The translations under genes were made by a program, and so were the position numbers. From the NCBI GenBank assembly GCA_030407315.1, contig JALQPE010001855.1:1-64000 (forward strand): a stretch of DNA of 64,000 nt, read 5' to 3'. This DNA is from Asparagopsis taxiformis. Lineage: Eukaryota > Rhodophyta > Florideophyceae > Bonnemaisoniales > Bonnemaisoniaceae. Positions 1 through 51,484 of this stretch are shown here, one piece after another. How positions within the stretch are numbered: the stretch's first letter is position 1; each line of letters starts with the position of its first letter. Under the pieces are notes generated by a model, which worked only from the letters and a program-made list of their open reading frames with translations, ran no database searches and was not told the origin of the DNA.

Positions 1-3000
1 AACTACTCTCGCTGGCAAAGACTTCCTCCGCCTCTTGCTGGATTTATTCGCCCACTCAAGTTTCGCAGACTTGACGGACAAGCCGGGAGGTTTCACATAC
101 GCGGACCTTGGCGCTTGGGTTGCGCAGGGCACGGAAGAACAATTTGTGGGCGCTGCAAGGTCGACTCAGCATGTCCTTCAGCGGTCGTTCGAAGATGCTG
201 GAGTCGAGGCGGATGTTGCCGAAATCGTCATGGCAGAGATGAACGTTGAGCGAGCCAAGCAGATTGTTCGTCTGGCATTACCCATTGCCGAGTTTTCAAG
301 ACAGGATGAGCGTATCGGGCAATGGGTTGAGCACTGCATCCTTTCTGGGATCGTGCCGCAGACCTTCCTTATTGGATGTAACATGCTTCCTTCGCCACTA
401 CAGGCGCCGCAGCGCGGGGAAACAAGCGCCTTCGTTCTTGCTCACCGGAAACGTTCGAGGTATTGATGTATTTCCAAGCGTTGTCTATCATCCGAAATCA
501 CAACAAGAACCTGCCGCGTCGCCGAATAGAGAGAGATGCGGCCGAAGAGGGGAACGAAGCCGCACGCGTCCCAGCCCATCGGAAAAGCACTAATCGAGCT
601 TGTTACGTGTTTCAAGTTTTATACCATGCTTGGACCGATGTGGCCTACGCCGCAAAGTTTTCCAGCTTCGAAGAGTTGATGGCGCCGTACATCATTTTTC
701 GACAGGCAGTGAGCATTGGTTTGACGTGCTCGATGAAGGTCTATTCGCACCGATGGAGCAGAAGCTAGATCTCTACCACAACAAAGCTCCCTATCTCATC
801 CTGATGGATATGGTGGAAAAGTAGAGACAAGAACAGTGCGCAGCACAGGCATTTAGGGACCTTGTGAGGAAGTTCTTCGACCGTTTCAGTTTCTTATCGT
901 CAACCCGGACCTGTACACTGGCCGGAGTCCGACCGCTGGGGGGCACTGGAAAATACTTCTCAAGCGGAAATCCGGACAAGCTGCCAGCGTATTTTGACAC
1001 CCTCGACGAAGACGTTATGGCTGTCCTCCGCCCGGCACCACAAGCCGCGGACGCAAGAGAAAGGTCCCCAAGCGGTTGATGACACTCCCACTCGTCGCAA
1101 CACAGGAGGGAGAGGTTTGGTTCCGTCGACAAGACACACAACCAGCTTCAACTTGGACCTGGGAGGACCAGTCTTACTGCCCAAGGGCCGTCTCCCCCGT
1201 CACCGTCACCCCATGCGACAGAAGAGCAGGAAAGTGAAGGGCAGGCTCTCGCAAAGGACTTTCTTTCGAAAATGAGTCAGTATTGCCGGGTGTACGACGT
1301 CCCTTTCGAAGATTTGGTCAGTGCCGACGAGAGCCGAGAACACGTGCCAATCACGGGCAACGTTCAGCTCATTCTGACTGATCCGCCCTACAATGTTCGT
1401 CGTAAGAGGAACGATTCCAACTCTTCGTACGACAGCTAACTGCAGAAGATATGCAGGCTAGCATCGAAGTGTTTGACGAGCTGTTGCGCCCCGTGGCCAC
1501 GGCATCGTGTTCTGCTCGGTTTTGCAGTTCTACGAATGGTTCCATTACTTGGAAACGTACAAAGGACCGCAGTCAAAGGCCCAACCGATACTGCTGCCAG
1601 TGATGACGGGTCGGATGAAGAAGAGGTTACGTCCATGAATTCGGACTCCGAAGCATCGCAGCACAGTGGCGAAGAAAGTGCGGATGAGGAGGAGGACGAG
1701 GAGGAGGAGGACGTCGTTCGGAATTCAGTTTCTTCGTTGACGAGGTACCTCTGTTGTTTGTCCGACTACCTGGGCACCTCTATCAAATGCCGGGCGGAAG
1801 AGGTACCAACGCATGAACATGGCAGAGGTCGCTATCCACTTCTGGAAGCGAGGTGTTCCGTTCAAGACCGGAAGCGAGATGGTGGCCTATAGGAACCACG
1901 GATACATGGACGGCACGTAACCGGCGTGGTGCAACGTCACCATCAATATGCCCGCCATCGATTCGAATGAGATGGTGTGGCGAACAAGGAGCACAACCGG
2001 TGCTACGGTCAGAGTTCGTGCAGAGCAGAGAAGAGCGTCGCTCTCATGATGGAGTTGATCAGCCAGCAGCATTCACAGCCTGGTGATATTGTTGTCGATC
2101 CATTCTTCTGGCACTTTCGCAACGGGAAAAGCAGCTATGAGCTTGCCTGAGCACCGTGTTTTCGTCGGCAGTGACATGGACAAATTGTGTGTGGTACGAT
2201 CGCTTCCAAAGCTGTGTGCAGTCATGTCACGTGTAATTCTTTCAAACAACACTGACATGAGGGTCACGACAGAAGCGAAACAGAGTGCTGAGAAGTTCTT
2301 GGCGTCCCCCCCTGTCACGATGCGTACGCAGAGGGAACGCAGGATCATCGAAACCCCACCTGGCCTTCCCCTGTACCAGAGGTTCCCGAAATATATTCGG
2401 CAGTAGTACCTCTGGCAGCTGTGCCCAGAGTCGATTGCGTCGCGCGAGCACATGGAGAAACCGGTACATTACTGGCCACCTTCCTGCGCCGCTGGTTGCA
2501 AACTGAAAACCCTCGCGTGATGCGGGCACACGATTGTGTTGCGAAAAAATTGAGCGTTCGACCATCGCTGATTAAGCATCCAAATGCAGGAAGAGGGCTC
2601 TTCGCTGAACAGACATTAATTTGGTGACGAAGTATGTGCATACTACGGAACTGTTGTGTACTCTGATATGAGCAAGGAGTCGATGAGGTTCGCGTACGGA
2701 GGAGGTCACATGGCGATAACGAAGGAAACATTCTTGATGTATGCTATCAAGCTGTATGCAACAGCGGAGGACGACGAAAAACATCGAGCATCCAATTTGG
2801 ATTCCGGCTCCGTTCTGTTCGGCGCAGTTCATCAACGACCCGCGGTATTTGCGAGGTGAGGACACTCCGGCGGAAGACACCAGGCGGATGGCCAACGTCG
2901 AGTTGTCGAGAACTACAGCAGCGGTTCGACGGGGAAGAAGCTCAAGGCGAAGGACCTAGAAAATCCGAAGATCATTGTAGTACGTGCAATCCGCGATATC

Positions 3001-3056
3001 CGTCCGGGGCAGGAGCTCTACGTTCATTATGGGACAGCGTTTAGAGCATGGAATTA
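1..3056 (+). pseudogene. DNA methyltransferase-SET fusion, copy A (broken, 5' cut by window edge)
   Basis: This is about 97% the same as 25603-28664 by eye and begins inside that gene at the window edge. It keeps the catalytic DPPYN of amino-DNA methyltransferases (1380-1394), an acidic linker (about 1600-1715), a motif I region related to DPFSGT near 2098 that carries an inserted base, and a C-terminal SET domain ending in GQELYVHYG just before the stop. The order DPPY then DPFSGT is the permuted (beta-type) order of N4-cytosine/N6-adenine methylases. Many single-base changes break the frame relative to copy B: an extra g near 148, a lost g giving a stop near 1437, and others near 1495, 1917, 2098, 2406 and 2620. 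In life the family methylates DNA bases, and SET domains methylate lysines, usually on histones. This copy should not make the full protein. Its lesions differ from those of copy B, so the two decayed separately, unless some are sequencing errors. Confidence 0.8.
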
Positions 3057-3280
3057 GGGTCACGAAAGATGTTTCATTTCGACTACAAATAAAGCTACGT
3101 TCCAGAGTTGAAGTATATCATATAATGCAGAATGTCCAGCCACCATTAGTCCAGGGTGAAACCTATTCGGCAGTACTCGCCTGTCAAAAACCAATCGTTC
3201 ACACTCTAGGTGCACTTCGTCGAGCAGTGAACCTGACTGCTTGGTTGCTGTTATGCGTGCAGATGCAAAATACAAGACCA

Positions 3281-3500
3281 AGTTGAAATGGACGCCCGGT
3301 GGATGTCCAGCTCAGTTGCATTGCTGTCCAGCCCAGAAATTCTACAATTCAGGGCAGAAAAAATATTGCAAAAAACATCGATTTCAGCGGGTCGATTGTG
3401 CCGTACGGCACACCCCCATCTCAAAAACATGTTCACATGTGCATGTTTTGAGAATAGCCCAAATTTTAAACTCAAATCAGGGTGTTCCCCGGATAAAGGG
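3281..3500 (+). repeat. R1 repeat unit between methyltransferase-SET and ParB-like genes
   Basis: One unit of the R1 family (fullest description at 8036-9460). It carries the GGTGGATGTCCAGCTC start, the palindrome TGTGCCGTACGGCACA and the CAAAAACATG hairpin. The same spacer sequence that joins R1 monomers elsewhere precedes it (about 3205-3280). It is followed by a stretch (3490-3547) shared with 29100-29140 and, inverted, with 24390-24440. Confidence 0.8.
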
Positions 3501-3830
3501 GTGCTCGCAGCCGCCCCAAAAGCCGCCTAGCTTGACAGCTGTAATTTTAACACATTACACATCAAGGACACTGCCTGCTTCACGCCACCTCGTCAGGTTT
3601 CGAGAGCCCGACTCGGGCCCGTTCTGAACGGACACTAACATCTCGATTGCCTGTCTTGCATTCCAGCGGTCACGATAGGTGTGTACCTAACAAAAATTTC
3701 GGTTGTATTGTGTTATTATTTCCAGCGATTGGCGTTCACGACCATTCTTCAACTTAACGTGAAACATACCATCCACATCACTCGAATACGTCAACGTCAA
3801 CCATCTCTTTTCCTTTCCAACTCAACAACC

Positions 3831-6118
3831 ATGGCGGATACGCATTTCAGCAGTTTGTTTCAACGGTTTGCGGCGATCAAGTGAGCGCGTCAGCGGAGTC
3901 GCGCGGACTCAAGCGCGGCGTCGATGTCGACTTGTTTGCGGACGTGGACGGTGCGGCTGTGCATATTGGGACGGCTTCGGTGAGCACTGCTGGTGGCGAT
4001 GTTGGCCTTCCGCGCACGCTGCACAACCACAAGCTGCCGGAAACCGACGAGGCCGACTATATCGTCGTGCGCAACATTGCGACTAAGGACAAGTTCAAGG
4101 ACCTCCCGTTCCCGTACATGTTTGATGGCGCCGAGGGACCGCCGGAGACGATGGGTGGAGCATACGCCGCGGCGTTTTACCCTTGGGATACTCGGATGAT
4201 GCGCCCCGCTGCGGAGGATGGCTCTAGCGACATTCGTACCCCTGCTGCAGCGTCAAACTTCAACGCAGCGACGAACCAGGCCAGCTCGGGACGGATGCCC
4301 AGTACCGGTCCAGCAGGCGAAATCACTGGTTCGGGGGGTACGAAGCATCCAGCACGCTCCGTCCCGGTTTCGGGAGGCACGAAGCGCCCTGCTCGCTCTG
4401 CCAGAGCCTCCAGTGGAGGCACGAAGCACCCTGCTCGCTCCAACGTCACCGAAGCTACTACGCAGGACGTAACCGAGGTGGACGACGAACCGGAGGTGGC
4501 GGAAAGCATTCGTGAGCAGCAGGGGACGCAAATTATGGTGCCCAAGTTTGTGACGTCGGATTACGTCGGAGAAGGAGCGACTGTGTTGGTGAGGCAGCTA
4601 GTGGAACCGGCCGTGACCCTTCGCGATGTGAAAGAAGACCACGTGGAGGACCTGCGCAACAATATGTTGGCTGTGGGGTATGTGAGCTCTTCGCGTATCA
4701 CTGTGACGGTGCTGAGGTCGCAGAACACGCATTTGTCCGCCGACACGCGTCTGTTCCAGAATGGCAAATTCCATGCCAATGCGAACGTGACCGTGATCGA
4801 CGGACTGCATCGTCTCAATGCTATGCATAGCATTGCGGATGACTTCACGCGCCTCACCCGTATGCACAGAACCAAGCTGCCACAGGAGGCAAACCGCTTG
4901 CGCTGGGTTACTCAGCCTCTGGATGTGTACTACCTTCGCCGCAAGGACGACAGTGATCTCCAGCCTCATGAGATCATCCACAAGAGTGCAGAGTCGAACC
5001 ATACGACTGGGACGCAACTGACGGAGCGCTCCCTGGTTCGAATCTTGTCGTCCATCCAGCAGTTCATCCGTACGATTGCTGTTGCAAACAACGTGGAAAA
5101 CGCTGGCGACTTGCGTGAGTCTGATGTCATCCGAACATTGTTCGAGGCGCAGTTCATGGGGATGATGAATTCGACGAACACGGCTCGGCGGTGGACGCGT
5201 TTGGCTATAGCAACGCTGAAGCATCCTGTTCTCGACGACGTGTTGCGTGAGCTGAACAATTCCGAGCGCCGCAACGAGATTGGGATAACGCACCTGGACC
5301 ACAAGATAGTGCGCGAGTTGCTGGAAGAAAACTTTGTCTTCGTCTTGCGTGGTCTTTCGGAGTACTTGAACCCTGCTCATGGCGGACGTCCGGATGGACG
5401 CTTTGACGTGAACGACTTTTATACATACGTCCGTCGCGTGACTGCAATAGCAAATTCTCTGTACGCTGCGTTTGGGCGCCCAAAGAGTATTATGCGCAAG
5501 TCATTTCTGAGCACAGAGATGGCAATTGGGTCGGTTAAGCAGCCGAAGGAGTTGCAATGGCATCTCACCAATGCCATTGCAATGTATAGAGGGGACGACC
5601 GGAGCAGTGAGGTTCGAATGCGACGGAGAACCACGCGTTTACAGGATTTGGAAACGAACTTGAAAGAGTTTTTCAATCCGACATTGAAGAAGAAGACTAA
5701 GGCTCGACGCAAACGCCGCCCTTCTGCTGCCAATGTGAGACTCACTCACAAGAAGCAGCGGAATGTCGAACATGAGCCTGCTTCGCATGGCATCCGCCGC
5801 CGTTCACAGCGACTTCGCTCGACGGGGAGCACACGCCTCGAGGAAGAAGAGCCGGTTGTGGTACAACAATCCGCCGGGGAAGAAGAGCAGGCCGTTGTTG
5901 ATAAACCCACCGATCAACAACAAGCCACTGCTTCCGGTGATGAGGTTGACGAAGACTCCGCCCGTTCCCCGATTCTGCCGTTGAGATTGTCCCCCAAGAT
6001 AACCAACGTGCTGGTGCGACTCCCTCCAACCAAGAATCTGTCCATACCGCTTCGGACGAGGAAGACAAACAGGGTGCAGACGAGGGCCAAGTCGAAAGCA
6101 AGGGGGTCCGCGAAGTGA
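3831..6118 (+). CDS. ParB/sulfiredoxin-like domain protein
   Basis: An open frame runs unbroken from before 3881 to the TGA at 6116. ParB-like N-terminal domains bind or cut DNA and use CTP/ATP. Here the diagnostic box is DGLHRLNAM (about residues 307-315 counting from 3881), inside a ParB-like core (roughly 225-420). The N-terminal region is low complexity, with three tandem GGTK(H/R)PARS repeats (about 152-190). The C-terminal third is basic, then acidic and Gln-rich. The ATG at 3831 reads only 17 codons before a stop. The inverted copy at 24018-24099 has one more base in a T/A run, and there the same ATG is in frame with this ORF, so this copy probably lost a base near 3858. The next in-frame ATG is near 4119. 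The last 166 nt overlap the oxygenase frame; see 5950-7677. Function in a eukaryote is unknown. Confidence 0.7.
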
Positions 6119-7677
6119 CAATTACATTCACTGTTCCGGAAGGAGTGGAAGTCGATGAAGACGGTTACATCGTTCGTGACTCTCCTTCTGAAGACGACCT
6201 CCTCTTCGACGACCGTATGCCGTCTCTTCCTGACGATTTCGAAGACCGAGCCGAAGGGCATCATCTGGCGCAGCGTCCCGCGGATGTCATCGCATCGGTG
6301 AGGGTTGGCTGTCTGCCCCCGATTGAGCTCAGGTTGTTATTGGAGAGTGTGGAAATCGATGAGGAGGGCAGAGAGGTGAGGTATTTGAAGCAAGTGGCGA
6401 TGGACCCTGTGTTTGAGGGGCTGCATATTCCGGAAGAACATCGGGCTCGTGTGCTATTCGAAATCGATCACGTCTATCCGATGTTCTTCGCAGCGTGGAA
6501 GATGGCTGCCAAGGCGATGTGTGAGCCTACATCGACGTTTCTACCCTCGAGGCTGGACTTCGCCCAGGTTGCGCGAATGTCTACAAGCTGGAAGGATTCG
6601 TATGAGGCCGGCACTGGTATGGCGTACTTCCACAATTGCCGAACGGAAATCAACGAGCGAGGGTATACGGTGATGCACAATTTCGCGGATGTAAGCTACC
6701 TAGATGCGTCGGACAAGTTCCCATTTGACTTGGGTCTCATGGAAGAAATTCCTAACCAGGAATTGTTTCGGTACTTTTTGGGAACGTGGGAGGGGGAGCA
6801 GGTGCACAAGGACCCTGGGAACCGGCAGCTGTGGAGTCCCATTGTCAATACGGGGGACGATGAAACAGACGAGAAGAACCGGAATGAGGGGAGGGCTCGC
6901 TTCACGTCTACGCGCCACTGCCTGGTTGACTATGCCGAGAACGATGAGACGCATATCGACCGGTTCAAGTTTGTGACGCGGCGAGCCCTGCTGGATGTGT
7001 GGTTGGGAATCCTTGTCCGGCTGACAGGGCTGGAGGAGTGCGGTTTACCGGGAGAAAAACTTGTCATGCCGGCATCTGGGGGACGGTTTTTGATAACGGG
7101 AAAGGGGTGTCCTCGGCAGGTCCCACACAATGATTTCCCTGTTCCTCCTCGCGACCGCAAAGATCAACTTCCGGGTTACTTTGTTATTGCCAACGGAGAT
7201 GACCCATTCCCTATCTGGGTGTGTCCAGGGTCCCACAAGTACGTCTTTTCCAAAGCGCTGGAATTAGATATGTACGCCAAGACGATGAAGCTGAAGAAGG
7301 TAATCGTTCCGCCACGTTCAGTCTTCATCGGTCACGGCCATGTACAACATGCCGGGGCAGGGCATGTCGACAGAGTTGTGTCACACACGACAACGAGGTA
7401 TCACACGTATTTCAGGAATGCGTCGTATCCGATTCCCGACAATGTTTCGTTTGGTTTCATCAGGCGGTTGGGATTCGAAGAAGAAGTCATCGCCAATGCT
7501 CCGCGCCGGTCTGCAAGGCAAAGTCAACCGGCACCTGTCAATGTTCGCCACAAGACAGTTGTTCCCATCCCGGTCAAGAAAGATGGTAGGCCGAAGACAG
7601 GGCAGCTCGGAATGATGCGGATGAAGACGACAGAACCTCGCAAGGATGTAATGCACACGCCGAGTGGGGCCCGGTAG
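5950..7677 (+). CDS. 2OG-Fe(II) oxygenase (phytanoyl-CoA dioxygenase-like) domain
   Basis: This frame is open from 5950, just after two stops, to 7677. It has no ATG until about 6217. It reads protein-like acidic sequence through the overlap with the ParB ORF (GATPSNQESVHTASDEEDK), so it is probably the C-terminal half of one ParB-oxygenase fusion separated by a one-base indel near 5955-5970. The double-stranded beta-helix signature is present: the metal-binding HxD as HND (7126-7134), a distal His in VQHAGAGH (about 7345) and a downstream Arg in TTTRYHTYF. The family uses Fe(II) and 2-oxoglutarate to hydroxylate substrates, and TET/JBP enzymes are distant relatives acting on DNA. Whether this one acts on DNA is inference from its neighbours. 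The C-terminal tail after about residue 450 is basic. Confidence 0.7.
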   Translation, partial: RRLRPFPDSAVEIVPQDNQRAGATPSNQESVHTASDEEDKQGADEGQVESKGVREVTITFTVPEGVEVDEDGYIVRDSPSEDDLLFDDRMPSLPDDFEDRAEGHHLAQRPADVIASVRVGCLPPIELRLLLESVEIDEEGREVRYLKQVAMDPVFEGLHIPEEHRARVLFEIDHVYPMFFAAWKMAAKAMCEPTSTFLPSRLDFAQVARMSTSWKDSYEAGTGMAYFHNCRTEINERGYTVMHNFADVSYLDASDKFPFDLGLMEEIPNQELFRYFLGTWEGEQVHKDPGNRQLWSPIVNTGDDETDEKNRNEGRARFTSTRHCLVDYAENDETHIDRFKFVTRRALLDVWLGILVRLTGLEECGLPGEKLVMPASGGRFLITGKGCPRQVPHNDFPVPPRDRKDQLPGYFVIANGDDPFPIWVCPGSHKYVFSKALELDMYAKTMKLKKVIVPPRSVFIGHGHVQHAGAGHVDRVVSHTTTRYHTYFRNASYPIPDNVSFGFIRRLGFEEEVIANAPRRSARQSQPAPVNVRHKTVVPIPVKKDGRPKTGQLGMMRMKTTEPRKDVMHTPSGAR

Positions 7678-8035
7678 TGCCTCTTCTGCCGGGACAACCT
7701 GGATATCTAGTTCACTATCATAGTGAGGACGAAGAGGAAGAACAGTTTTCCGACGGCTAGATATCTTAACAACAACTACTTTAGCAAACAATTATCGAGA
7801 ATATAATCATCTCCTTTATCACTTTCAATCTATGAACCTACTATAATGCACTTCCGTTCCATGCTTTCAAACTAGATTGTCCATTCCCTAGTGGGTTGGA
7901 GCATGATTCCAGGACGATTCCCTCACATCTCTAGACTCGATGGTCTATGCTAGAAATAGCAGAACAATTGGGTTTATACGTGCTTCATCGCCAACTTGCT
8001 TCTGGTAATGGCTGGACGTGCACGATACACGATCA
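7678..8035. other. Intergenic, no gene seen
   Basis: 3' flank of the oxygenase gene. It is AT-richer than the coding region and has no ORF of note. It runs into the R1 array. Confidence 0.6.
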
Positions 8036-9460
8036 CCTGAAATGGACGTCCGGTGGATGTCCAACTCAGATGCATTCCTGGCCGGCCCAGAAATTCTACA
8101 ATTTCGGGCACAAAAAAATATTGCAAAAAACATCGATTTGGGCGGTCGATTGTGCCGTACGGCACACCCCCATCTCAAAAACATGTTCACATGTGCATGT
8201 TTTTGAGAATAGCCCAAATTTTAATTCAAATCAGGGTGTCTAATTTGGCCACAACGGCCCCAGGCACCGGCCACCGGCCCCGATCGGGGCTATCACTGGC
8301 TTCTGTAAGCACTAACTGTAAGGCTAAATGGCGTCTGACGAAGGGTCAATTTCAGGCTCAATACGCCAGGGACAGGTCTTGGTCCTTGTTCCATCATGGT
8401 CCCGCCCCGCTCTCTCACGACCAACCTGAAATGGACGTCCGGTGGATGTCCAGCTCGATTGCATTGCTGGCCAGCCCAGAAATTCTAAAATTTCGGGCAC
8501 AAAAAAATATTGCAGAAAACATCGATTTGGGCGGTCGATTGTGCCGTACGGCACACCCCCATCTCAAAAACATGTTCACATGTGCATGTTTTTGAGAATA
8601 GCCCAAATTTTAATTCAAATCAGGGTGTCTAATTTGGCCACAACGGCCCCAGGAACCGGCCGCCGCCCCGAGCGGGGCCATCACTGGCTTCTGTAAGCAC
8701 TAACTGTAAGCCAAAATCGCGTCTTACGAAGGTTCGATTCCAGGCTTGAAGCCTAAGTTATGCTTGGGTGACATCTTTTTCCCTGTTTCATCATGGTCCC
8801 GCCTTACTCCCTCAACACAAACACTACTCACCTATCACGTTACTCATATTCCGTGTACTTTGTATTAGTAGTGAACCCGCTGGCTTAGTTTCTGCAATGC
8901 GTGGATGTAGGCAGCACACGACCAACCTGAAATGGACGTCCGGTGGATGTCCAGCTCAGATGCACTGCTGGCCAGCCCAGAAATTCTAAAATTTCGGGCA
9001 CAAAAAATCTTGCAAAAATCAACGATTTGGGCGGTCGATTGTGCCGTACGGCACACCCCCATCTCAAAAACATGTTCACATGTGCATGTTTTTGAGAATA
9101 GCCCAAATTTTAATTCAAATCAGGGTGTCTAATTTGGCCACAACGGCCCCAGGAACCGACCGCCGGCCCCGATCGGGGGCTATCACTGGCGTCTGTAAGC
9201 ACCAACTGTAAGCCGGAGCCGGCTGCCGCCCCGATCGGGGCTATCACTGGCTTCTATTAGCACCAACTGTAAGCCAAAATCGCGTCTCACGAAGGGTCGA
9301 TTTCAGGCTCAACACGTCAGGGAAAGGTCTTGGTCCTTGTTTCATCATGGTCCCGCCCCACCCTCTCGCGACCAACCTGAAATGGACGTCCGGTGGATGT
9401 CCAGCTCGATTGCATTGCTGGCCAGCCCAGAAATTCTAAAATTTCCGAAAAATCAATTTG
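8036..9460 (+). repeat. R1 satellite-like array, three full units and one partial
   Basis: Full units start near 8036, 8425 and 8925, and a partial one near 9373; spacing is 390-500 bp. Each has TGGACGTCCGGTGG, then GCCCAGAAATTCTAAAATTT, then a perfect 16-bp palindrome TGTGCCGTACGGCACA (8540-8555 in unit 2). Next comes a 34-bp hairpin with 12-bp arms CTCAAAAACATG/CATGTTTTTGAG around CACATGTG (8563-8596), and a tail with GGCCACAACGGCCCC and CACTGGCTTCTGTAAGC. Some tails contain GGTTCGATTCC. Spacers are also shared between units. The partial unit at 9373 diverges after the AAATTTCC and marks the start of segment E. Confidence 0.85.
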
Positions 9461-11091
9461 GTGGCCCAGCATCTCCTGTGCCGAAAATTCCCGCACTCAG
9501 TTCTGATATACGTCTAGACGTGTTTCCCACTTGTACGCATCAGGGAAGGCGTCACGGAAGGTTGACACTACGCTACTTGTGTACCGCGTCGTCTGAAATA
9601 GCGAGTAGTGTTTGTTGTATAGTTGTGGAGTATGCGTCTAGTGGTTTGTAAAGCTTGCAGAACGGGATAGGGATGTGGGTGGCCCTATTTTATGAATACA
9701 TGAGTACCAATATTCAGGTTGACAAAGCGGAAAGGCATAGGCTCATACATGTTTGAGATTGCATAGTAGAGAAAATATTTTCATCGAAATTTACATGGAG
9801 CTGATGGAGGTTTTAAGGATGAGGTATGAGAGGAAGAAAATTCTTCTGTGGTATGAGGATGTGTTCTGTGGGGGGATGGAATCTTGGGATGGTACAGGGG
9901 GAGGTGGAAATGTACGGAGTGCGGGTTTAGAATGGATTGTGATTCGGAGAGGAGTGCCGACAAGCATATTATGGGGATTGGGGAGACGCTGCGGGGTGTT
10001 GGGGTAGTGAGGGCGGAGGAGGTGTTTAGGTGGGACCGTAGGAGGGTGCGGTTGAAGGCGCCGAGAGGAGGGGTTTTTAGGAAAGTGAGGAGAAAGAAGG
10101 GGAGGGGGTGGCGTCTGTTCTGGCTGTGGTGAGTGGGGATGTGATGGAGAAGAAGGGGGTTATTGTATTTGGGGAGGGAGGGGAGTGGGAGGAAGGGTGC
10201 GAAGTGGGGGGTTGATATGTGTTTCAGAGCGGGGAGGTTTCTGGGGATACGGCGGGGGAGCCACCCCGCAGTGCGGGAGCGTGGGCCGGTGGTGGTGGTG
10301 TATACGGTATCGAAGATGCGGATGGCGTGGGGGCATGGAGCAGCTGAGGGAGGGAGGGGTGGAGCAGGTCGGGTACGGGATGGGGAGTGAGAGGTTTTGG
10401 AAGAGTAAGCTGCAGGGGAAGTTTGTGTAGAGGGCGAAGGAGAGGGGTTGAGGGTAGAGGAGAGAGGGTACTGAAGAACAATACGTTTCAAAGGTGATGG
10501 GGGAGAGCATGGTCGAGGAGATAGGGGTGTTTTGCCCTATTCTGAGGTAGTATGAGGACTGGTTATACGAAATCTGTACGGTAGAGCAGAAAAGTAGGTA
10601 TGGAATGGAGGTGTGCACCGTGGAAGCGGGGATAGGTATCTGAAAATGCGTGCTAGAGTGGTATTGGGGGTGTTTGAGGTACAGTACGGGGGAGGTGAGC
10701 ACCAACAGGAAGGGGGTGTGAGCGAGAGGATGAAAAAATTAAAGACGAAATTGGAGTCGACCGACAAGGAAAAATAGAGTGGTCGCCGTGATGGATGCGG
10801 ACATCCATGTCGAGCACGGCGGCAGAAATTTCTGGGGTCGAAATTTTTGAATTTCTGAACCGGCGCCCGTCCTAGGTGGACATAGACATGGCGGAAGTCC
10901 ATCCCGAGGGGGACATCCGTGGTACTAGAAACAATGAATGTCGCCCTAGTAATACTAGACGTACTAGACCGCATGGACGTCCGGTTCTAGGCGGACATCC
11001 AAAAATACTGGAGAACATGGACGTCCGCCTAGTAATACTAGGTGTACTAGAGGTTGTGGACGTCCGCGTCCATTTCCGAGAACACAGACGT
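9373..11091 (+). repeat. Duplicated segment E, copy 1
   Basis: This matches 22303-24017 in the same orientation, with small indels. It starts with a truncated R1 end and closes with an inverted, degenerate R1 end (10830-10905), so the two ends are inverted-repeat-like. The body (9780-10700) is very G-rich on the plus strand. After the inverted end lies an array of GGACGTCC and TACTAG motifs (10870-11085). The right limit is sharp: after AACACAGACG the two copies run into unrelated sequence. I saw no target duplication. Flanking R1 sequence is also duplicated, so the left limit is uncertain. Confidence 0.7.
9884..10132 (+). pseudogene. Zinc-finger-like ORF in segment E, copy 1 (frame broken)
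   Basis: Counterpart of 22774-23379. It keeps the Cys-rich box KCTECGF followed by SADKH, but single-base indels end the frame early compared with copy 2. Composition is dominated by Gly, Arg and Trp because the strand is G-rich, so coding status is doubtful. Confidence 0.25.
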
Positions 11092-12758: not shown

Positions 12759-14237
12759 TCACATATTCTGCATCTCCTCCGTCCTCTTCCATAGACCTGA
12801 AGCTCTCCTCCAGCACTGATTCCCCCCATCGTCTACATTCAGTTCTTCATATCTATCACGCGATATAGTCAAAACCTCCTCATTCATAAAACGACTACTC
12901 ACCCGCTCCCCGGGAAGAAGCAGTTTCACTGCTTCATTGATTTCCCGGATTTGCGCTCCTCCCACCTCTGCTCCACTTTGAAATTTCAAAATCGTTCGGA
13001 ACCCGTATGCAAGTATGTAGATGAATTGCAAGGAGTATTCTGAACGTCGCAGGAACATGTTCCTATCAGAACATTGCGTGTAGGCGACTGCAAAGTTCAG
13101 TGCAACCTCTACTAAATTGATCCTCCTAGTCACAAACCTCTTGTCCGGTTCTCCAATTATTTGAACTTCGTACTCGACTTTGAATACCATTTCTTTTCGC
13201 ACAGCAATGAAGTCGCGAAGAATCTTCATATTCTTGTCATCCATTGCTGCGCGCTCCGCTGCATTCATTTTCCTCTGCGTCGAGTACAGACTTGGAACTG
13301 ACTCAATGTCCAGCCCACCGTCGTGCAAATGATGCTCCATGCGGACTGAACCTTGAAACCCACTGTATAGAACGAATCCAAGATCTCGGATGAACCGGTT
13401 TCGCACATGATCTCTGGACTTGTTCATAAACCCGGTCACTGCCGTGAGTGCCGATTTCGTCACAGTGATGCCTACCTCCTTTCTGTGCAACGGCCCATTG
13501 TCACCAACCTTTCTTCGCTTCTGCTTTCGAGCGGCCCCATCACTTGCCTCGGACGTCCCATGCATTCCATCCATGCGAGCAGAGTCCGTTCCGCGAATTG
13601 TCTCCTCAATGGTCCCGGTAGTCACATACCCCCGCGCCCTCCACCGTTCCATACCTTCCGACGTTCCATTGGAGCTGGAACGGTCTCCTCCCTCTCTGAA
13701 AGAATTGTTTTGACACGTATTCTTGATTAAAGAGGTCACAACTTGGCAGCGCAAGTCAATGTGGTTCCGGCCGGCAAGCGTCCTATTGAACACATCCTTT
13801 CGCTCATTGCTCTGCCTGGCGAACATCAGCGTATTGATTAGCTGGCATCCGTTGAAATCCCTCTTATCCACCATTGCCTTCATGTACGTTGGAACAACAG
13901 CACACAGCACAGCACACACCATTTCGAACGTGAACGATTTCTCCGCATCCTGCGCAATGCGGAGACGTTCCCTGTCCTTCTCAGAGGCGATCTTCTTCGG
14001 ATGTCCTTGTCCCTGGCTCAGAAGCCCATTGACGATGCCCTTGACCTCCTGCATATCGGTGTTTAGCATGGAGACAGTCTTGGCGACATTTCCGAGAGTC
14101 TCGCGTAATTGAATGGTGCTCTTCTCGACGGCATCCATTTTATCACTCAGGGCTTTCAGCTCTGCAGTGATGTTCGAAAAGCCCTCACGCGTTATTTCGG
14201 AAAATGCAGCGATGCTCACGGAGGTTTCGGGATTCAT
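12759..14237 (-). CDS. Hypothetical coiled-coil protein, 492 aa
   Basis: A complete ATG-started frame with no break. Residues about 20-75 are predicted coiled coil by heptad-like spacing (TAELKALSDKMDAVEKSTIQ). A Ser/Gly-rich middle holds a basic, NLS-like KQKRRKVGD (about 240-248). The C-terminal half (about 260-490) looks globular, with alternating hydrophobic strands and helices (VFKVEYEVQIIGE, YSLQFIYILAYGF). No catalytic motif or known family is recognised. The length, intactness and amino-acid composition make it a believable gene, possibly nuclear. It lies tail-to-tail with the gene ending at 12442. Confidence 0.6.
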   Translation of the reverse strand: MNPETSVSIAAFSEITREGFSNITAELKALSDKMDAVEKSTIQLRETLGNVAKTVSMLNTDMQEVKGIVNGLLSQGQGHPKKIASEKDRERLRIAQDAEKSFTFEMVCAVLCAVVPTYMKAMVDKRDFNGCQLINTLMFARQSNERKDVFNRTLAGRNHIDLRCQVVTSLIKNTCQNNSFREGGDRSSSNGTSEGMERWRARGYVTTGTIEETIRGTDSARMDGMHGTSEASDGAARKQKRRKVGDNGPLHRKEVGITVTKSALTAVTGFMNKSRDHVRNRFIRDLGFVLYSGFQGSVRMEHHLHDGGLDIESVPSLYSTQRKMNAAERAAMDDKNMKILRDFIAVRKEMVFKVEYEVQIIGEPDKRFVTRRINLVEVALNFAVAYTQCSDRNMFLRRSEYSLQFIYILAYGFRTILKFQSGAEVGGAQIREINEAVKLLLPGERVSSRFMNEEVLTISRDRYEELNVDDGGNQCWRRASGLWKRTEEMQNM

Positions 14238-14765
14238 GTTGAACTTGCAATTGGAGTTTGCTAAAAGGAGAAGTGCTTTGAAGGAAGGGTGTCACGCTTA
14301 GTACAGCAGTGTTGTAGCAAATATCATTCCAGTGGATGCATCCATCCTGTTCTACTCTACATAATAATAATGCTTCTCGGTGCTCCGTAACAGTTATTTT
14401 TCATAATTTAGTGGTGGATGGTGCGTATTCTTTCCTTTGCTACCACCCACGTCCTGTGAATACCACACCTCGCTACCAGACTGACCTCTCCTACTCGACA
14501 CTTTCAATGCAAAGATAGATAGGTATAATTTGAAATGCTAAACTCAACATAATATAGTCTACTCTGTACTTTCTCTCCTTACGGTGAGACAAACGAGATA
14601 TGTTCAATCTTCCCTATCTTTCTTTCTACAACGTCCTATTCAGCATCTAGCTTCCCCGCACCCAACTATCTGTAAAGCACCATCACAATTACTATAGTCG
14701 TATACCACACACCATTCCAATATTTACCTTCACACTAACACTATGCTCCATATTTCCTCTAAGTC

Positions 14766-22385: not shown

Positions 22386-24017
22386 TTGGTGGCCCAGCAT
22401 CTCCTGTGCCGAAAATTCCCGCACTCACTTCTGATATACTATATCGTAGTAGTAGTGTAGTCTAGACGTGTTTCGCACTTGTACGCATCAGGGAAGGCTG
22501 CACGGAAGGTTGAGACTACGCTACTTGTGTACCGCGTCGTCTGAAATAGCGAGTAGTGTTTGTTGTATAGTTGTGGAGTATGCGTCTAGTGGTTTGTAAA
22601 GCTTGCAGAACGGGATAGGGATGTGGGTGGCCCTATTTTATGAATACATGAGTACCAATATTCAAGGGTGACAAAGCGGAAAGGCATACGTTCATACATG
22701 TTTGAGATTGCATAGTAGAGAAAAATTTACATCGAAATTTACATAGAGCAGATGGAGGTTTTAAGGATGAGGTATGAGAGGAAGAAAATTCTTCTGTGGT
22801 ATGAGGATGTGTTCTGTGGAGGGATGGAATCTTGGATGGTACAGGGGGAGGTGGAAATGTACGGAGTGCGGGTTTAGATTGGAGTGTGATTCGGAGAGGA
22901 GTGCCGACAAGCATATTATGGGGATTGGGGAGACGCTGCGGGGTGTTGGGGTAGTGAGGGCGGAGGAGGTGTTTAGGTGGGACCGTAGGAGGGTGCGGTT
23001 GAAGGCGCCGAGAGGAGGGGGTTTTAGGAAAGTGAGGGAAAGAAGGGGAGGGGGTGGCGTCTGTTCTGGCTGTGGTGAGTGGGATGTGATGGAGAAGAAG
23101 GGGTTATTGTATTTGGGGCGGGAGGGGAGTGGGAGGAAGGGTGCGAAGTGGGGGTTGATATGTGGTTCAGAGCGGGGAGGTTCTGGGGAGACGGCGGGGG
23201 AGCGGGAGCGTGGGCCAGTTGTGGTGGTGTATACGGTATCGAAGATGCGGATGTCGTGGGGCATGGAGCAGCTGAGGGAGGGAGGGGTGGAGCAGGTCGG
23301 GTACGGGATGGGGAGTGAGAGGTTTTGGAAGAGTAAGCTGCAGGGGAAGTTCGTGGAGAGGGCGAAGGAGAGGGGTTGAAGGTAGAGGAGAGAGGGTATT
23401 GAAGAACAATACGTTTCAAAGGTGATGGGGGAGACCATGGTCGAGGAGATAGGGGTGTTTTTCCCTATTCTGAGGTAGTATGAGGACTGGTTATACGAAA
23501 TCTGTACGGTAGAGCAGAACAGTAGGTATGGGATGGAGGTGTGCACCGTGGAAGCGGGGATAGGTAGCTGAAAATGCGTGCTAGAGTGGTTTTGGGGGTG
23601 TTTGAGGTACAGTACGGGGGAAGTGAGCACCAACAGGAAGGGGGTGTGAGCGAGAGGATGAAAAAATTAAAGACGAAATTGGAGTCGACCGACAAGGAAA
23701 AAATAGAGTGGTCGCCGTGATGGATGCGGACATCCATGTCGAGCACGGCGGCAGAAATTTCTGGGGTCGAAATTTTTGAATTTCTGAACCGGCGCCCGTC
23801 CTAGGTTGACATAGACATGGTGGAAGTCCATCCCGAGGGGGACATCCGTGGTACTAGAAACGAATGTCGCCCTAGTAATACTAGACGTACTAGACCGCAT
23901 GGACGTCCGGTTCTAGGCGGACATCCAAAAATACTGGAGAACATGGACGTCCGCCTAGTAATACTAGGTGTACTAGAGGTTGTGGACGTCCGCGTCCATT
24001 TCCGAGAACACAGACGT
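22303..24017 (+). repeat. Duplicated segment E, copy 2
   Basis: Second copy of 9373-11091, with the same G-rich body and the same GGACGTCC/TACTAG array (23810-24010). It ends after AACACAGACG at about 24016, where it abuts a ParB gene fragment. The inverted degenerate R1 end is at about 23740-23830. Confidence 0.75.
22774..23379 (+). CDS. Possible zinc-finger-like protein in segment E copy 2
   Basis: An ATG frame of 201 codons. It contains KCTECGF...SADKH (about residues 29-46), which fits a C2H-type zinc-ribbon or finger start, and a second pair CSGCGEW (about 97-103). Much of the rest is Gly/Arg/Trp/Glu, as expected from any frame on a G-rich purine strand. The opposite strand has an equally long Pro/Ser frame, so selection for coding cannot be shown. 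Copy 1 is frame-broken. Confidence 0.3.
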   Translation: MRGRKFFCGMRMCSVEGWNLGWYRGRWKCTECGFRLECDSERSADKHIMGIGETLRGVGVVRAEEVFRWDRRRVRLKAPRGGGFRKVRERRGGGGVCSGCGEWDVMEKKGLLYLGREGSGRKGAKWGLICGSERGGSGETAGERERGPVVVVYTVSKMRMSWGMEQLREGGVEQVGYGMGSERFWKSKLQGKFVERAKERG

Positions 24018-24099
24018 TGAATCCGCGCGACTCCGCCGACGCGCTCACTTGATTGCCGCAAACCATTGAAAACAAACTGCTGGAATGCGTATCCGCCAT
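24018..24099 (-). pseudogene. ParB-like gene, N-terminal fragment
   Basis: Inverted copy of the 5' end of the gene at 3831. It reads MADTHSSSLF, then QVSASAESRGFN, and stops at the edge of segment E, about 27 codons in. Here the ATG is in frame with the ParB frame, unlike at 3831, which identifies the lost base in the other copy. Homology continues upstream through the promoter (24100-24430). Confidence 0.8.
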
Positions 24100-24429
24100 G
24101 GTTGTTGAGTTGGAAAGGAAAAGAGATGGTTGACGTTGACGTATTGGAGTGATGTGGATGGTATGTTTCACGTTGCGTTGAAGAATGGTCGTGAACGCCA
24201 ATCACTGGAAATAATAACACAATACAACCGAAATTTTGTTAGGTACACACCTATCGTGACCGCTGGAATGCAAGAGAGGCAATCGAGATGTGAGTGTCCG
24301 TTCGGAACGGGCCCGAGTCGGGCTCTCGAAACCTGACGAGGTGGCGTGAAGCATGCAGTGTCCTTGATGTGTAATGTGTTAAAATTACAGCTATCAAGCT
24401 AGGCAGCTTTTGGGGCGGCTGCGAGCACC

Positions 24430-25130
24430 CCTTATCCGGGGGACACCCTGATTTGAGTTGAAATTTGGGCTATTCTCAAAAGCATGCACATGTGAACATG
24501 TTTTTGAGATGAGGGTGTGCCGTACGGCACAATCGACCCGCCGAAATCGATGTTTTTCGCAACATTTTTTTCTGCCCTGAATTGTCGAATTTCTGGGCTG
24601 GACAGCAGTGCATCTCAGCTGGACATCCACCAGACGTCCATTTCAGGTTGGTCGTGTGCTGCCTACATCCACGCATTGCAAGAACTAAGCAGGCGAGTTC
24701 ACTACTCATACAAAGTGCACTGAATATGAGTAACGTGATGGGTGAGTAGTGTTTGTCGTGGAGGAGTAAAGCGGGACCATGATGAAACATGGAAAAAGAT
24801 TTCTCCCAAGCATAACTTAGGCTTGAAGCCTGGAATCGACCCATCGTTAGGCGCCATTTAGCTTTACAGTTAGTGCTTACAGAAGCCAGTGATGACCCCG
24901 CTCGGGGCGGCGGCTCCGGTTCCTGGGGCCGTTGTGGCCAAATTAGACACCCTGATTTGAGTTAAAATTTGGGCTATTCTCAAAAACATGCACATGTGAA
25001 CATGTTTTTGAGATGGGGGTGTGCCGTACGGCACAATCGACCGCCCAAATCGATGTTTTTTGCAATATTTTTTTCTGCCCGAAATTGTAGAATTTCTGGG
25101 CTGGCCAGCAATGTATCTGAGCTGGACATC
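24430..25130 (-). repeat. Two R1 units upstream of methyltransferase copy B
   Basis: Units at 24435-24650 and 24905-25125, minus orientation, joined by a standard R1 spacer. The first is joined to the ParB promoter exactly as at 3281-3547 but inverted. The second lies about 340 bp before the methyltransferase ATG. Confidence 0.8.
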
Positions 25131-25465
25131 CCCACGTCCAGTGGCCGTCCGGATGTCGCTCACCTGGTAAGCGTGAGGCACCTGTGACAACCTATGTGAC
25201 TGGCGGCCTTGCAGTACAACACTCAAAGGCAGGGAATCACAATCTTTTTAAAATTTTTCTCTACCACGTATCCGTCACAACTTATTACCTACACCGGGTA
25301 CGGGTTTCAAGACCTTTCCAGTGCTGTGTACCCGTATACTCTGTTCCGTTCGATATCAACCAGTGTTCCTCACGAAAGAGTGCAAACGTCACGAGATACG
25401 TCGTCAAATTTGACTGTCTCGCCGAGCGGTCGCCATCCTGTACCGAATTTTCCACTCATTCCATT

Positions 25466-28400
25466 ATGGCGAATAAGCGCAGGCGCAACAGCAATCCGAT
25501 CGTTGACGACGCAACCGTGCCAATTCTGCGCGAACCCGCTAGCCCTTGGGAGGATTCTAGTGACATGGGTACACGTCGAAACGTAGGTCGCGCCGCCCGC
25601 GAAACTACTCTCGCTGGCAAAGACTTCCTCCGCCTCTTGCTGGATTTATTCGCCCACTCAAGTTTCGCAGACTTGACGGACAAGCCGGGAGGTTTCACAT
25701 ACGCGGACCTTGGCGCTTGGGTTGCGCAGGGCACGGAAGAACAATTTGTGGCGCTGCAAGGTCGACTCAGCATGTCCTTCAGCGGTCGTTCGAAGAATGC
25801 TGGAGTCGAGGCGGATGTTGCCGAAATCGTCATGGCAGAGATGAACGTTGAGCGAGCGAAGCAGATTGTTCGTCTGGAATTACCGATTGCCGAGTTTTCA
25901 AGACAGGATGAGCGTATCGGGCAATGGGTTGAGCACTGCATCCTTTCTGGGATCGTGCCGCAGACCTTCCTTATTGGATGTAACATGCTTCCTTCGCCAC
26001 TACAGGCGCCGCAGCGCGGGGAACCAAGCGCCTTCGTTCTTGCTCCACCGGAAACGTTCGAGGTATTGATGTATTTCCAAGCGTTGTCTATCATCCGAAA
26101 TCACAACAAGAACCTGCCGCGTCGCCGAATAGGCGATGCGGCCGAAGAGGGGAACGAAGCCGCACGCGTCCCAGCCCATCGGAAAAGCACTAATCGAGCT
26201 TGTTACGTGGTTCAAGTTTTATACCATGCTTGGACCGATGTGGCCTACGCCGCAAAGTTTTCCAGCTTCGAAGAGTTGATGGCGCCGTACATCATTTTCG
26301 ACAGCAGTGAGCATTGGTTTGACGTGCTCGATGAAGGTCTATTCGCACCGATGGAGCAGAAGCTAGATCTCTACCACGACAAAGCTCCCCTATCTCATCC
26401 TGATGGATATGGTGGAAAAGTAGAGACAAGAACCAGTGCGCAGCACAGTGCATTTAGGGACCTTGTGAGGAAGTTCTTCGACCGGTTGCAGTTTCTTATC
26501 GTCAACCCGGACCTGTACACCTGGCCGGAGTCCGACCGCTGGGGGCGCTAGAAATATACTTGTCAAGCGGAAATCCGGACAAGCTGCCAGCGTACTTTGA
26601 CACCCTCGACGAAGACGTTATGGCTGTCCTCCGCCCGGCACCACAAGCCGCGGACGCAGAAAAGGTCCCCAAGCGGTTGATGACACTCCCACTCGTCGCA
26701 ACACAGGAGGGAGAGGTTTGGTTCCGTCGACAAGACACACAACCAGGCTTCAACTTGGACCTGGGAGGACCAGTCTTACTGCCCAAGGGCCGTCTCCCCC
26801 GTCACCGTCACCCCATGCGACAGAAGAGCAGGAAAGTGAAGGGCAGGCTCTCGCAAAGGACTTTCTTTCGAAAATGAGTCAGTATTGCCGGGTGTACGAC
26901 GTCCCTTTCGAAGATTTGGTCAGTGCCGACGAGAGCCGAGAACACGTGCCCATCACGGGCAACGTTCAGCTCATTCTGACTGATCCGCCCTACAATGTTC
27001 GTCGTAAGAGGAACGATTCCAACTCTTCGTACGACAGGCTAACTGCAGAAGATATGCAGGCTAGCATCGAAGTGTTTGACGAGCTGTTGCGCCCCGGTGG
27101 CCACGGCATCGTGTTCTGCTCCGTTTTGCAGTTCTATGAATGGTTCCATTACTTGGAAACGTACAAAGGACCGCAGTCAGAAGGCCCAACCGATGCTGCT
27201 GCCAGTGATGACGGGTCGGATGAAGAAGAGGTTACGTCCATGAATTCGGACTCCGAAGCATCGCAGCACAGTGGCGAAGAAAGTGCGGATGAGGAGATGA
27301 CGAGGACGAGGAGGAGGAGGACGTCGTTCGGAATTCAGTTTTCTTCGTTGACGAAGTACCTCTGTTGTTTGTCCGATTACCTGGGCACCTCTATCAAATG
27401 CCGGGGCGCAAGAGGTACCAACGCATGAACATGGCAGAGGTCGCTATCCACTTCTGGAAGCGAGGTGTTCCGTTCAAGACTGGAAGCGAGATGGTGGCCT
27501 ATAGGAACCACGGATACATGGACGGCACGTACCGGCGTGGTGCAACGTCACCATCAATATGCCCGCCATCGATTCGAATGAGATGGTGTGGCAACAAGGA
27601 GCACAACCGGTGCTACGGTCAGAGTTCGTGCAGAGCAGAAGAGCGTCGCTCTCATGATGGAGTTGATCAGCCAGCATTCACAGCGTGGTGATATTGTTGT
27701 CGATCCATTCTCTGGCACTTTCGCAACGGGAAAAGCAGCTATGAGCTTGCCTGAGCACCGTGTTTTCGTCGGCAGTGACATGGACAAATTGTGTGTGGCA
27801 CGATCGCTTCCAAAGCTGTGTGCAGTCATGTCACGTGTAATTCTTTCAAACAACACTGACATGAGGGTCACGACAGAAGCGAAACAGAGTGCTGAGAAGT
27901 TCTTGGCGTCCCCCTCTGTCACGATGCGTACGCAGAGGGAACGCAGGATCATCGAACCCCCACCTGGCCTTCCCCTGTACCAGAGGTTCCCGAAATATAT
28001 TCGGCAGTACCTCTGGCAGCTGTGCCCAGAGTCGATTGCGTCGCACGAGCACATGGAAAAACCGGTACATTATTGGCCACCTTCCCTGCGCCGCTGGTTG
28101 CAAACTGAAAACCCTCGCGTGATGCGGGCACACGATTGTGTTGCGAAAAAATTGAGCGTTCGACCATCGCTGATTAAGCATCCAAATGCAGGAAGAGGGC
28201 TCTTCGCTGAACAGACATTTAATGTTGGCGACGAAGTATGTGCATACTACGGAACTGTTGTGTACTCTGATATGAGCAAGGAGTCGATGAGGTTCGCGTA
28301 CGGAGAGGGTCACATGGCGATAACGAAGGAAACATTCTTGATGTATGCTATCAAGCTGTATGCAACAGCGGAGGACGACGAAAACATCTAGCATCCAATT

Positions 28401-28664
28401 TGGATTGTTCCGGCTCCGTTCTGTTCGGCGCAGTTCATCAAAGACCCGCGGTATTTGCGAGGTGAGGACACTCCGGCGGAAGACACCAGGCGGATGGCCA
28501 ACGTCGAGTTTGTCGAGAACTACAGCAGCGGTTCGACGGGGAAGAAGCTCAAGGCGAAGGACCTAGAAAATCCGAAGATCATTGTAGTACGTGCAATCCG
28601 CGATATCCGTCCGGGGCAGGAGCTCTACGTTCATTATGGGACAGCGTTTAGAGCATGGAATTAG
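25466..28664 (+). pseudogene. DNA methyltransferase-SET fusion, copy B (full length, frame-broken)
   Basis: ATG at 25466 (MANKRRRNSNP). The first 362 codons are open: a novel N-terminal helical region with no family recognised. Then come the methyltransferase with LTDPPYNV (26982-26996) and RPGGHGIVFC, an acidic linker (about 27195-27320), motif I DPFSGTFATG (27702-27731) and a SET domain (about 28160-28660: HPNAGRGLFAEQ, VCAYYG, AQFIKDPRY, GQELYVHYG). The usual SET NHSC box is replaced by FIKDP, so lysine-methyltransferase activity is uncertain. Breaks: frame shifts near 26545, 26790, 27293, 27535 and 27592, and a TAG at 28388-28396 where copy A has GAG. Comparing the two copies restores the logic of one long ORF, so an intact parent probably exists elsewhere. 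It is flanked by R1 on both sides. Confidence 0.8.
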
Positions 28665-28889
28665 GGTCACGAAAGATGTTTTCATTTCGACTACAAATAA
28701 AGCTACGTTCCAGAGTTGAAGTATATCATATAATGCAGCATGTCCAGCCACCATTAGTCCAGGGTGAAACCTATTGAGCAGTACTCGCCTGTCAAAAACC
28801 AATCGTTCACACTCTAGGTGCACTTCGTCCGAGCAGTGAACCTGACTGCTTGGTTGCTGTTATGCGTGCAGATGCAAATACAAGACCAA

Positions 28890-29100
28890 GTTGAAATGGA
28901 CGCCCGGTGGATGTCCAGCTCAGTTGCATTGCTGTCCAGCCCAGAAATTCTACAATTCAGGGCAGAAAAAAATATTGCAAAAAACATCGATTTCAGCGGG
29001 TCGATTGTGCCGTACGGCACACCCCCATCTCAAAAACATGTTCACATGTGCATGTTTTTGAGAATAGCCCAAATTTTAATTCAAATCAGGACGTCTTCCG
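28890..29100 (+). repeat. R1 unit downstream of methyltransferase copy B
   Basis: Nearly the same as the unit at 3281-3500. Homology with copy A continues to about 29140 (CTAGCTCGACAGCTGTAATT), then stops before the next gene's promoter. Confidence 0.8.
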
Positions 29101-29322
29101 GACATAGGGGTGCTCGCGGCCTAGCTCGACAGCTGTAATTGTACCTCATTAAATACTGTTGATGACTGCCTACCGTATACAATCTGGGCTGTTGGCGTAT
29201 TCTCCGTACTTGACCTGACCTGAACGTTCATCGCAGACCGTTGTGGTTACCGACACTATACAGCAATCTTTTTTGTATCTCGTGCAACTCAATCGTTCCA
29301 TCGCTTCCGGGAAGGCTTCATT

Positions 29323-35130: not shown

Positions 35131-35135
35131 CGTAT

Positions 35136-35384
35136 ATAGACCGTTAGTACAATCGAAGCTGACACACAACTTATTCCCCAATCTGCCTGTACCACTCTCA
35201 CCAGAGTGCAATGTGGTACTGCCTTTTATACTGCTAACATAATCTAATGTTTGTATCCTATCCTGTAATAATTACCATCGCAACATGTGATGTAATTATT
35301 ACGCGTCACTCTCCTCTTAAACCTCTTGCATTCTTTCATTCTCTTCACCGTTATTATTTCGTGTTAGGATCTTCAATCTCCACA
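35136..35384 (-). repeat. 3' LTR of the gypsy element
   Basis: 249 bp, matching 40124-40371. The left flank CGTAT is the target duplication. Confidence 0.92.
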
Positions 35385-35424
35385 CCGCCCCATGACTATC
35401 ACCAGATGCTTCAGGTGTATGTAG

Positions 35425-40082: not shown

Positions 40083-40123
40083 TTCGACTGATTCCCAACT
40101 TCTCCTGCAGGATAGAAATTTCT

Positions 40124-40371
40124 ATAGACCGTTAGTACAATCGAAGCTGACACACAACTTATTCCCAATCTGCCTGTACCACTCTCACCAGAGTGCAATG
40201 TGGTACTGCCTTTTATACTGCTAACATAATCTAATGTTTGTATCCTATCCTGTAATAATTACCATCGCAACATGTGATGTAATTATTACGCGTCACTCTC
40301 CTCTTAAACCTCTTGCATTCTTTCATTCTCTTCACCGTTATTATTTCGTGTTAGGATCTTCAATCTCCACA
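40124..40371 (-). repeat. 5' LTR of the gypsy element
   Basis: 248 bp, followed on the plus strand by the CGTAT target duplication. Confidence 0.92.
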
Positions 40372-40439
40372 CGTATCATGTCTGTGGATTATCGAGGCCA
40401 TAAATGCCATACACCTACACTTGTACCATCTCATACCGC

Positions 40440-51475: not shown

Positions 51476-51484
51476 GATTAACTA

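Follow-up and report, generated by a model that had tools for sequence, protein, structure and literature searches.

A conserved fusion of a bacterial-type DNA methyltransferase with a SET domain in a repeat-rich region of the red alga Asparagopsis taxiformis

The window analysed here is the 64,000-nucleotide stretch at positions 1 to 64,000 of contig JALQPE010001855.1 (assembly GCA_030407315.1) of the red alga Asparagopsis taxiformis, and it contains two copies of a gene that joins an amino-methyltransferase domain (N6_N4_Mtase) to a SET domain. Pfam scans of the window also detected copia-type (RVT_2) elements, a gypsy-type element and WD40-repeat genes, and judged by this gene content the region is eukaryotic. 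Two forward-strand genes occupy the first 7.7 kb, namely the methyltransferase-SET gene and, downstream of it, a second gene with ParB-like and 2-oxoglutarate (2OG)-oxygenase-like motifs. The parts of the two methyltransferase-SET copies were delineated by tblastn with the database relative P0007 and by profile matches, in which the second conserved motif marks the S-adenosylmethionine (AdoMet)-binding half of the enzyme:

2..3054, + strand: copy 1 of the methyltransferase-SET gene, with broken frames and its 5' end lost at the window edge (tblastn with P0007, residues 47-1065 in pieces)
1362..1430, + strand: copy 1, start of the N6_N4_Mtase domain with the catalytic DPPYN (PF01555 positions 1-25, E 0.083, below cut-off, short piece)
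2588..3033, + strand: copy 1, SET domain, spread across frames (position transferred from copy 2 via the alignment)
25466..28664, + strand: full-length copy 2 of the methyltransferase-SET gene, its frame broken in places and containing a TAG in frame at 28389 (tblastn with P0007, residues 1-1065 in pieces)
26964..27137, + strand: copy 2, catalytic half of N6_N4_Mtase with DPPYN (PF01555 positions 1-59, E 0.0029, below cut-off)
27633..27788, + strand: copy 2, AdoMet-binding half of N6_N4_Mtase with DPFSGTF (PF01555 positions 164-213, 38 bits against a cut-off of 26.7)
28191..28640, + strand: copy 2, SET domain (PF00856 positions 1-105 of 105, 32.2 bits against a cut-off of 22.4)

The copies lie about 22 kb apart, and positions 1-3512 are 97.3% identical to positions 25603-29121. 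The original prediction, made from the sequence alone, had placed an amino-methyltransferase with DPPYN and DPFSGT motifs and a SET domain in one reading unit. Both domains indeed occur in the same gene and on the same strand, and on copy 2 both profiles exceed their cut-offs (PF01555 with 37.5-38 bits against 26.7 and E 2.2e-9 on one piece; PF00856 with E 1.5e-7 and the whole model covered, a score obtained with one TAG read as Q), but several frame breaks interrupt the unit in both copies. Copy 2 was not part of that prediction.

A protein search with the segment that runs from motif I as far as the end of the SET domain recovered nine relatives (E 9e-237 to 4e-17), of which P0007 is 99% identical over the query piece and the other eight are 25-35% identical. 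All are 955-1069 amino acids (aa) long except P0015 (677 aa). The PF01555 profile scores above its cut-off in all nine, and the SET profile does so in six; P0013 and P0014 match SET below the cut-off, and in P0015 no SET match is found by Pfam at E 0.1. The motifs DPPY/F, Dx(F/C)xGT, AGxGx(F/Y)A, (Y/F)(Y/F)G and PxP(F/C)C...ND, which together span both enzymes, are present in every member, and in the family alignment the catalytic DPPY/F precedes the AdoMet-binding motif, both being retained in 9/9. A tyrosine near the end of the SET domain, read from the alignment, is shared by eight of the nine, with phenylalanine in P0013. When the family profile was compared with PDB, 31 sequences were matched, every one of them an amino-methyltransferase or a SET enzyme: the former include DpnA (1.1e-14), CcrM (2.6e-9), RsrI and MboIIA, and the latter SETD8 (1.1e-5), EZH2 and KMT2C/D. 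BLASTP comparisons among the main open reading frames (ORFs) related only copy 2 and P0007, apart from a single chance hit (E 0.66). In a tree of the nine fusions with 67 viral sequences from IMG/VR (79 loci had a match, and short or duplicate rows were dropped), the fusions fall on one side of a branch with support 96/55, and a single fusion event is a plausible account of their origin.

An AlphaFold model of P0007 has a mean predicted local distance difference test score (pLDDT) of 64.9. Among the best 50 of 495 Foldseek rows, the model matches CcrM (7.6e-8), HpyAVI (1.3e-7), SUV420H1 (7.4e-5) and MLL1 (2.2e-4), and the template modelling (TM) scores by target for CcrM, HpyAVI and the bdelloid rotifer enzyme N4CMT are 0.5-0.76. 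For the first 450 residues the model shows mainly helices, with confidence that is moderate to low. As the Pfam profiles, the nine-member family, the PDB profile matches and the fold matches all agree, the methyltransferase-SET fusion is real and conserved. Given the DPPY/F motif and the fact that the nearest profile relatives are adenine enzymes, the beta-class methyltransferase domain would most likely be of the adenine-N6 type, but the rotifer N4-cytosine enzyme is also close in fold.

The fusion resembles several known enzymes in its individual parts. CcrM, DpnA/HpyAVI, RsrI and MboIIA, which are its best PDB profile and fold matches, likewise carry DPPY followed by the AdoMet site, but they are bacterial enzymes and are not known to possess a SET domain or the 450-aa helical N-terminal region. 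SETD8/KMT5A, SUV420H1 and the MLL family share its SET profile and fold, whereas the family described here has ND in place of NHxC, the usual motif of SET lysine methyltransferases, and a DNA methyltransferase attached. Within eukaryotes the rotifer N4CMT is comparable in that a bacterial beta-class (permuted) amino-methyltransferase was taken up and joined to a chromatin domain (PMC8885841). That domain is a chromodomain, i.e. a reader, in contrast to the SET domain, a writer, found here; further, N4CMT is an N4-cytosine enzyme, whereas the PDB matches of the family profile other than SET are adenine or unnamed methyltransferases. MetB (PF02384) of early-diverging fungi is another captured bacterial adenine methyltransferase in eukaryotes, but it belongs to a different Pfam family and a SET domain is not mentioned for it in the accessible portion of the report (PMC13297926). 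A precedent for repeats bearing enzymes of chromatin or DNA marks comes from HarbingerS and MuDR transposons with SET genes and fungal DNA transposons with TET/JBP (PMC12730594); unlike in those elements, there is here no DNA-transposon transposase among the scanned ORFs and no TET/JBP profile match for the oxygenase-like gene, and the SET domain is fused to a DNA methyltransferase.

No description of a DNA methyltransferase-SET fusion was found among the matches listed for the open-access literature, in titles and the starts of abstracts. In eukaryotes, methylation of DNA and methylation of histones are usually linked by distinct writers and readers; with a conserved single protein that combines a DNA methyltransferase and a lysine methyltransferase, such coupling would become testable in one molecule. 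Next to the rotifer N4CMT, the fusion would be a further type of bacterial amino-methyltransferase captured by eukaryotes, and it represents a candidate eukaryotic writer of N6-methyladenine (6mA) outside the MT-A70 family.

The second gene, a fragment of its second copy, and the blocks of a repeat here termed satellite R that lie next to them are arranged as follows:

3831..6118, + strand: second gene, first long frame, ParB-like part (ORF 3758-6118, 786 aa)
4793..4822, + strand: ParB-like motif VIDGLHRLNA, in ORF 3758-6118
5950..7677, + strand: continuation of the second gene in another frame, 575 aa, 2OG-oxygenase-like (relatives P0001-P0005; coding periodicity)
7126..7398, + strand: 2OG-like core HxD...PGSHK...H...R, with H, D, H and R invariant in 6/6 aligned sequences
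3273..3485, + strand: satellite R unit between the two genes
8028..9445, + strand: satellite R array 3' of the second gene
24017..24099, - strand: second copy of the ParB-like gene, truncated to its 5' coding end and pointing away from copy 2
24442..25140, - strand: satellite R array 5' of copy 2
28881..29096, + strand: satellite R unit 3' of copy 2

The second gene begins with an ATG at 3831, about 770 bp past the SET stop and on the same strand, with a counterpart at 24099; this ATG is in a different frame from the bulk of ORF 3758-6118. Near 5950-6010 the coding periodicity moves from the frame of ORF 3758-6118 into that of 5950-7677, and since the coding signal thus crosses from one frame into the other, the two parts would probably be continuous in an intact gene. 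The sequence VIDGLHRLNA matches DGxHR, a ParB-type motif. The window has 270 stop-to-stop ORFs with a length of 80 aa or more, and each of the ParB-like and 2OG-like motifs occurs once among them; shuffles of the respective ORF matched in 5/50,000 and 16/50,000 cases, the search patterns having been composed after the sequence had been seen. Relatives of the oxygenase part comprise P0001, which is 96-99% identical, and P0002-P0005 at 26-38%; two of the six aligned sequences that share the invariant H, D, H and R are nearly identical. The PGSH motif is found in the window copy, P0001, P0002 and P0005, and is altered in P0003 and P0004. The four distant relatives are 325-443 aa long and show no visible DGxHR, within a search whose length limit would have hidden a full ParB-like/oxygenase fusion.

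Profile and fold comparisons were made with both parts of the second gene. Across its ORFs and pieces, neither ParB nor an oxygenase was named by any model of Pfam, NCBIfam, PDB or PADLOC. In PHROG the ParB-like piece matched a 'ParB-like partition protein' at E 0.31, in row 5 of 5; a topoisomerase scored better there (0.16), as did the likewise unrelated HslU (0.024) and a pyocin activator (0.1) in other searches. Residues 200-700 of the ParB-like ORF gave nothing at E 0.01 in a protein search with 8000 candidates scored. For the oxygenase-like ORF, its core and P0002-P0005 there was no Pfam match to TET/JBP, and hmmsearch with a three-sequence PhyH/EctD profile did not rise above shuffles, the top score itself being that of a shuffle. 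An hhalign comparison of the oxygenase part with PhyH/EctD gave P 0.028 and a probability of 0.9%, the AlphaFold model of this part (pLDDT 32.6) was useless, and a profile search of genome contigs with the oxygenase alignment found no relative. Tblastn with the ParB-like core returned 38 phage records (the best 30 of 38 being listed) and four plasmid records, and with the oxygenase core one phage and one plasmid record, all at E of at least 1; none of the matches listed is annotated as ParB or oxygenase. Thus, of the domains originally predicted, N6_N4_Mtase and SET score above cut-off while ParB and the oxygenase (PhyH) gain no profile support; the second gene stands where it was predicted, on the same strand and with both the ParB-like and the HxD...H 2OG-Fe(II) motifs, and these labels apply at the level of motifs only, not of folds.

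At copy 1 the order of features is fusion gene, satellite R, second gene and satellite R array; at copy 2 it is the second gene's 5' remnant on the reverse strand, satellite R array, fusion gene and satellite R. The homology around the second gene's start is wider than its coding end, with 3210-3912 matching 24017-24720. Hence the fusion and the second gene adjoin twice in one genome, with a relative orientation that is not fixed. A linkage of the two genes into a module, as suggested, is possible; its basis is adjacency within a single genome, to the second gene at copy 1 and to an inverted 5' piece of it at copy 2, in no fixed order. Satellite R, which lies at the joints, could itself be the cause of the rearrangement. 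Its unit measures about 500 bp and contains an inverted repeat at unit positions 147-182, and the satellite forms seven blocks within the first 30 kb in both orientations, the remaining ones being 16535-17225, 17868-18135 and 20889-22373. Copy 2 is flanked by inverted satellite R, but the satellite is dispersed in both orientations. A second direct duplication relates 9219-11091 to 22143-24017 (94% identical, of skewed composition), and it stops where the fragment of the second gene starts.

We consider it somewhat probable that the window holds members of a eukaryotic, repeat-associated family of methyltransferase-SET fusions that are active in both DNA and lysine methylation. The predicted protein would be of about 1000 aa: its N-terminal region would be mostly helical, a beta-class amino DNA methyltransferase of bacterial type would come next, and a SET lysine methyltransferase would form the C-terminus. 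Were both domains active, as we infer, DNA and histone (or other) lysines would be methylated at one place and the two marks coupled. Most likely repeats carry the gene, or it spreads together with them, and it would mark its own chromatin, though this is the weak step of the proposal; the product of the neighbouring gene is probably a protein with a ParB-like and a 2OG-Fe(II)-like part. A mobile or host system had been proposed, and the repeats and gene copies do suggest a mobile nature.

Several observations weigh against this interpretation. No DNA-transposon transposase was detected among the 29 ORFs or pieces scanned by Pfam, a subset of the ORFs of the window, and for this reason the repeat-borne aspect is weak; retroelement integrases lie at 35-60 kb. 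The P0007 model has a predicted TM score of 0.38, and its resemblance to SET folds is modest (SUV420H1 and MLL1, TM by target 0.36-0.58). The PDB scores for SET are summed over stretches, no single one of which passes the limit alone. In all nine relatives ND stands at the place of NHxC, so the substrate or the activity of the SET domain could differ. A regular expression for the SET end, one position off, matched 0/9, and the statement on the conserved tyrosine is based on reading the alignment. With respect to specificity, the rotifer N4-cytosine enzyme ranks third in Foldseek for the P0007 model. Finally, the single origin in the tree is weak, with a Shimodaira-Hasegawa approximate likelihood ratio test (SH-aLRT) value of 55, an unsettled bootstrap and long branches; in the trimmed part, the (D/N/S)PP(Y/F/W) motif is missing from 60 of the 67 viral rows, which makes the comparison set imperfect.

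The condition of the genes bears on whether the window copies might be decayed pseudogenes without function, an explanation that we consider unlikely. They do contain frame breaks and the in-frame TAG at 28389, and over 3462 aligned columns they differ by 52 substitutions and 37 indel events, of which 26 break the frame, all within the first 3075 columns that correspond to the gene. However, 24 of the 28 single-base indels lie in homopolymer runs, the pattern of long-read error, and P0007 is an unbroken protein of 1065 aa almost identical to the query piece. Together these two facts fit uncorrected long-read error better than decay, and the breaks in both copies are probably for the most part errors of this kind. 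A less remote possibility, which we nonetheless hold only tentatively, is a host gene family for genome defence or regulation, in which a captured bacterial methyltransferase with a SET tail silences repeats, in the manner of the rotifer N4CMT/SETDB1, and the repeat setting is incidental. The divergence of eight relatives to 25-35% identity implies long selection, and N4CMT, a captured beta-class enzyme with a chromodomain (PMC8885841), is close in fold. Against this, near-identical copies about 22 kb apart and a gene fragment among satellite arrays look repeat-borne, and the database clusters of P0001 and P0007 have 32 and 13 members, which may be gene copies or repeated assemblies. An integrated large DNA virus as the source of the genes appears very improbable. 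Relatives of the methyltransferase part were found by the family alignment in 122 IMG/VR contigs, and PHROG DNA methyltransferases match P0007 at 5e-17; yet the best 80 of the 122 IMG/VR matches all fall within residues 456-841, before the SET domain, IMG/VR searches with the oxygenase alignment, the ParB-like ORF and a methyltransferase-SET piece gave no relative, and no viral hallmark gene was found among the ORFs scanned by Pfam, a subset of those in the window. A ParB motif expression run on the IMG/VR loci returned nothing useful.

The original prediction further envisaged that the fusion could write DNA and histone marks, one of which the DNA-binding ParB-like/2OG protein would erase or alter by oxidation, in a self-regulating manner. 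The adjacency of the genes at copy 1, the 5' piece beside copy 2 and the retention of the H, D, H, R core in 6/6 sequences are consistent with such a pairing, as is the precedent of TET/JBP on fungal DNA transposons and SET genes on some oomycete transposons (PMC12730594). Nevertheless, it is doubtful: no profile names ParB or an oxygenase and unrelated models outscore ParB, the oxygenase model is uninformative, PGSH is not kept in P0003 and P0004, the orientation differs between copies with satellite R at the joints, and the distant oxygenase relatives are short proteins in which DGxHR is not visible, albeit under a length limit that would hide a full fusion. Its most elaborate form, a repeat-borne self-regulating epigenetic unit that writes 6mA and a histone lysine mark on its own chromatin, with the neighbouring gene's protein bound to that DNA and removing or converting either mark, seems a little less likely still. 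We prefer the repeat-associated methyltransferase-SET family, with the second gene of the window as a neighbour of motif-level likeness to ParB and 2OG oxygenases.

Beyond these genes, scanning the window for tRNAs and, at the gathering threshold, for Rfam families gave no matches. The reverse strand carries a 510-aa ORF at 12759-14291 with weak coiled-coil-type Pfam matches only, all under cut-off. The gypsy-type element at 35135-40372 has a chromodomain match under the Pfam cut-off and flanking direct repeats of 251 bp that are 99.6% identical and resemble long terminal repeats. There is also a 350-aa ORF with cysteine-rich repeats (40355-41407; Ephrin_rec_like match, 4.7e-10) and a copia-type element between identical 155-bp direct repeats (41863-46740). 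Two WD40-repeat ORFs at 51482-52162 and 53212-54456 lie on the same strand and are similar by eye, and 54693-54951 contains a 130-bp exact head-to-tail repeat. At 56102-64000 two arms of 3876 bp, 100% complementary and separated by a spacer of 147 bp, each bear a copia-type ORF; as a perfect palindrome that reaches exactly to the window edge, this structure is possibly an assembly artefact.

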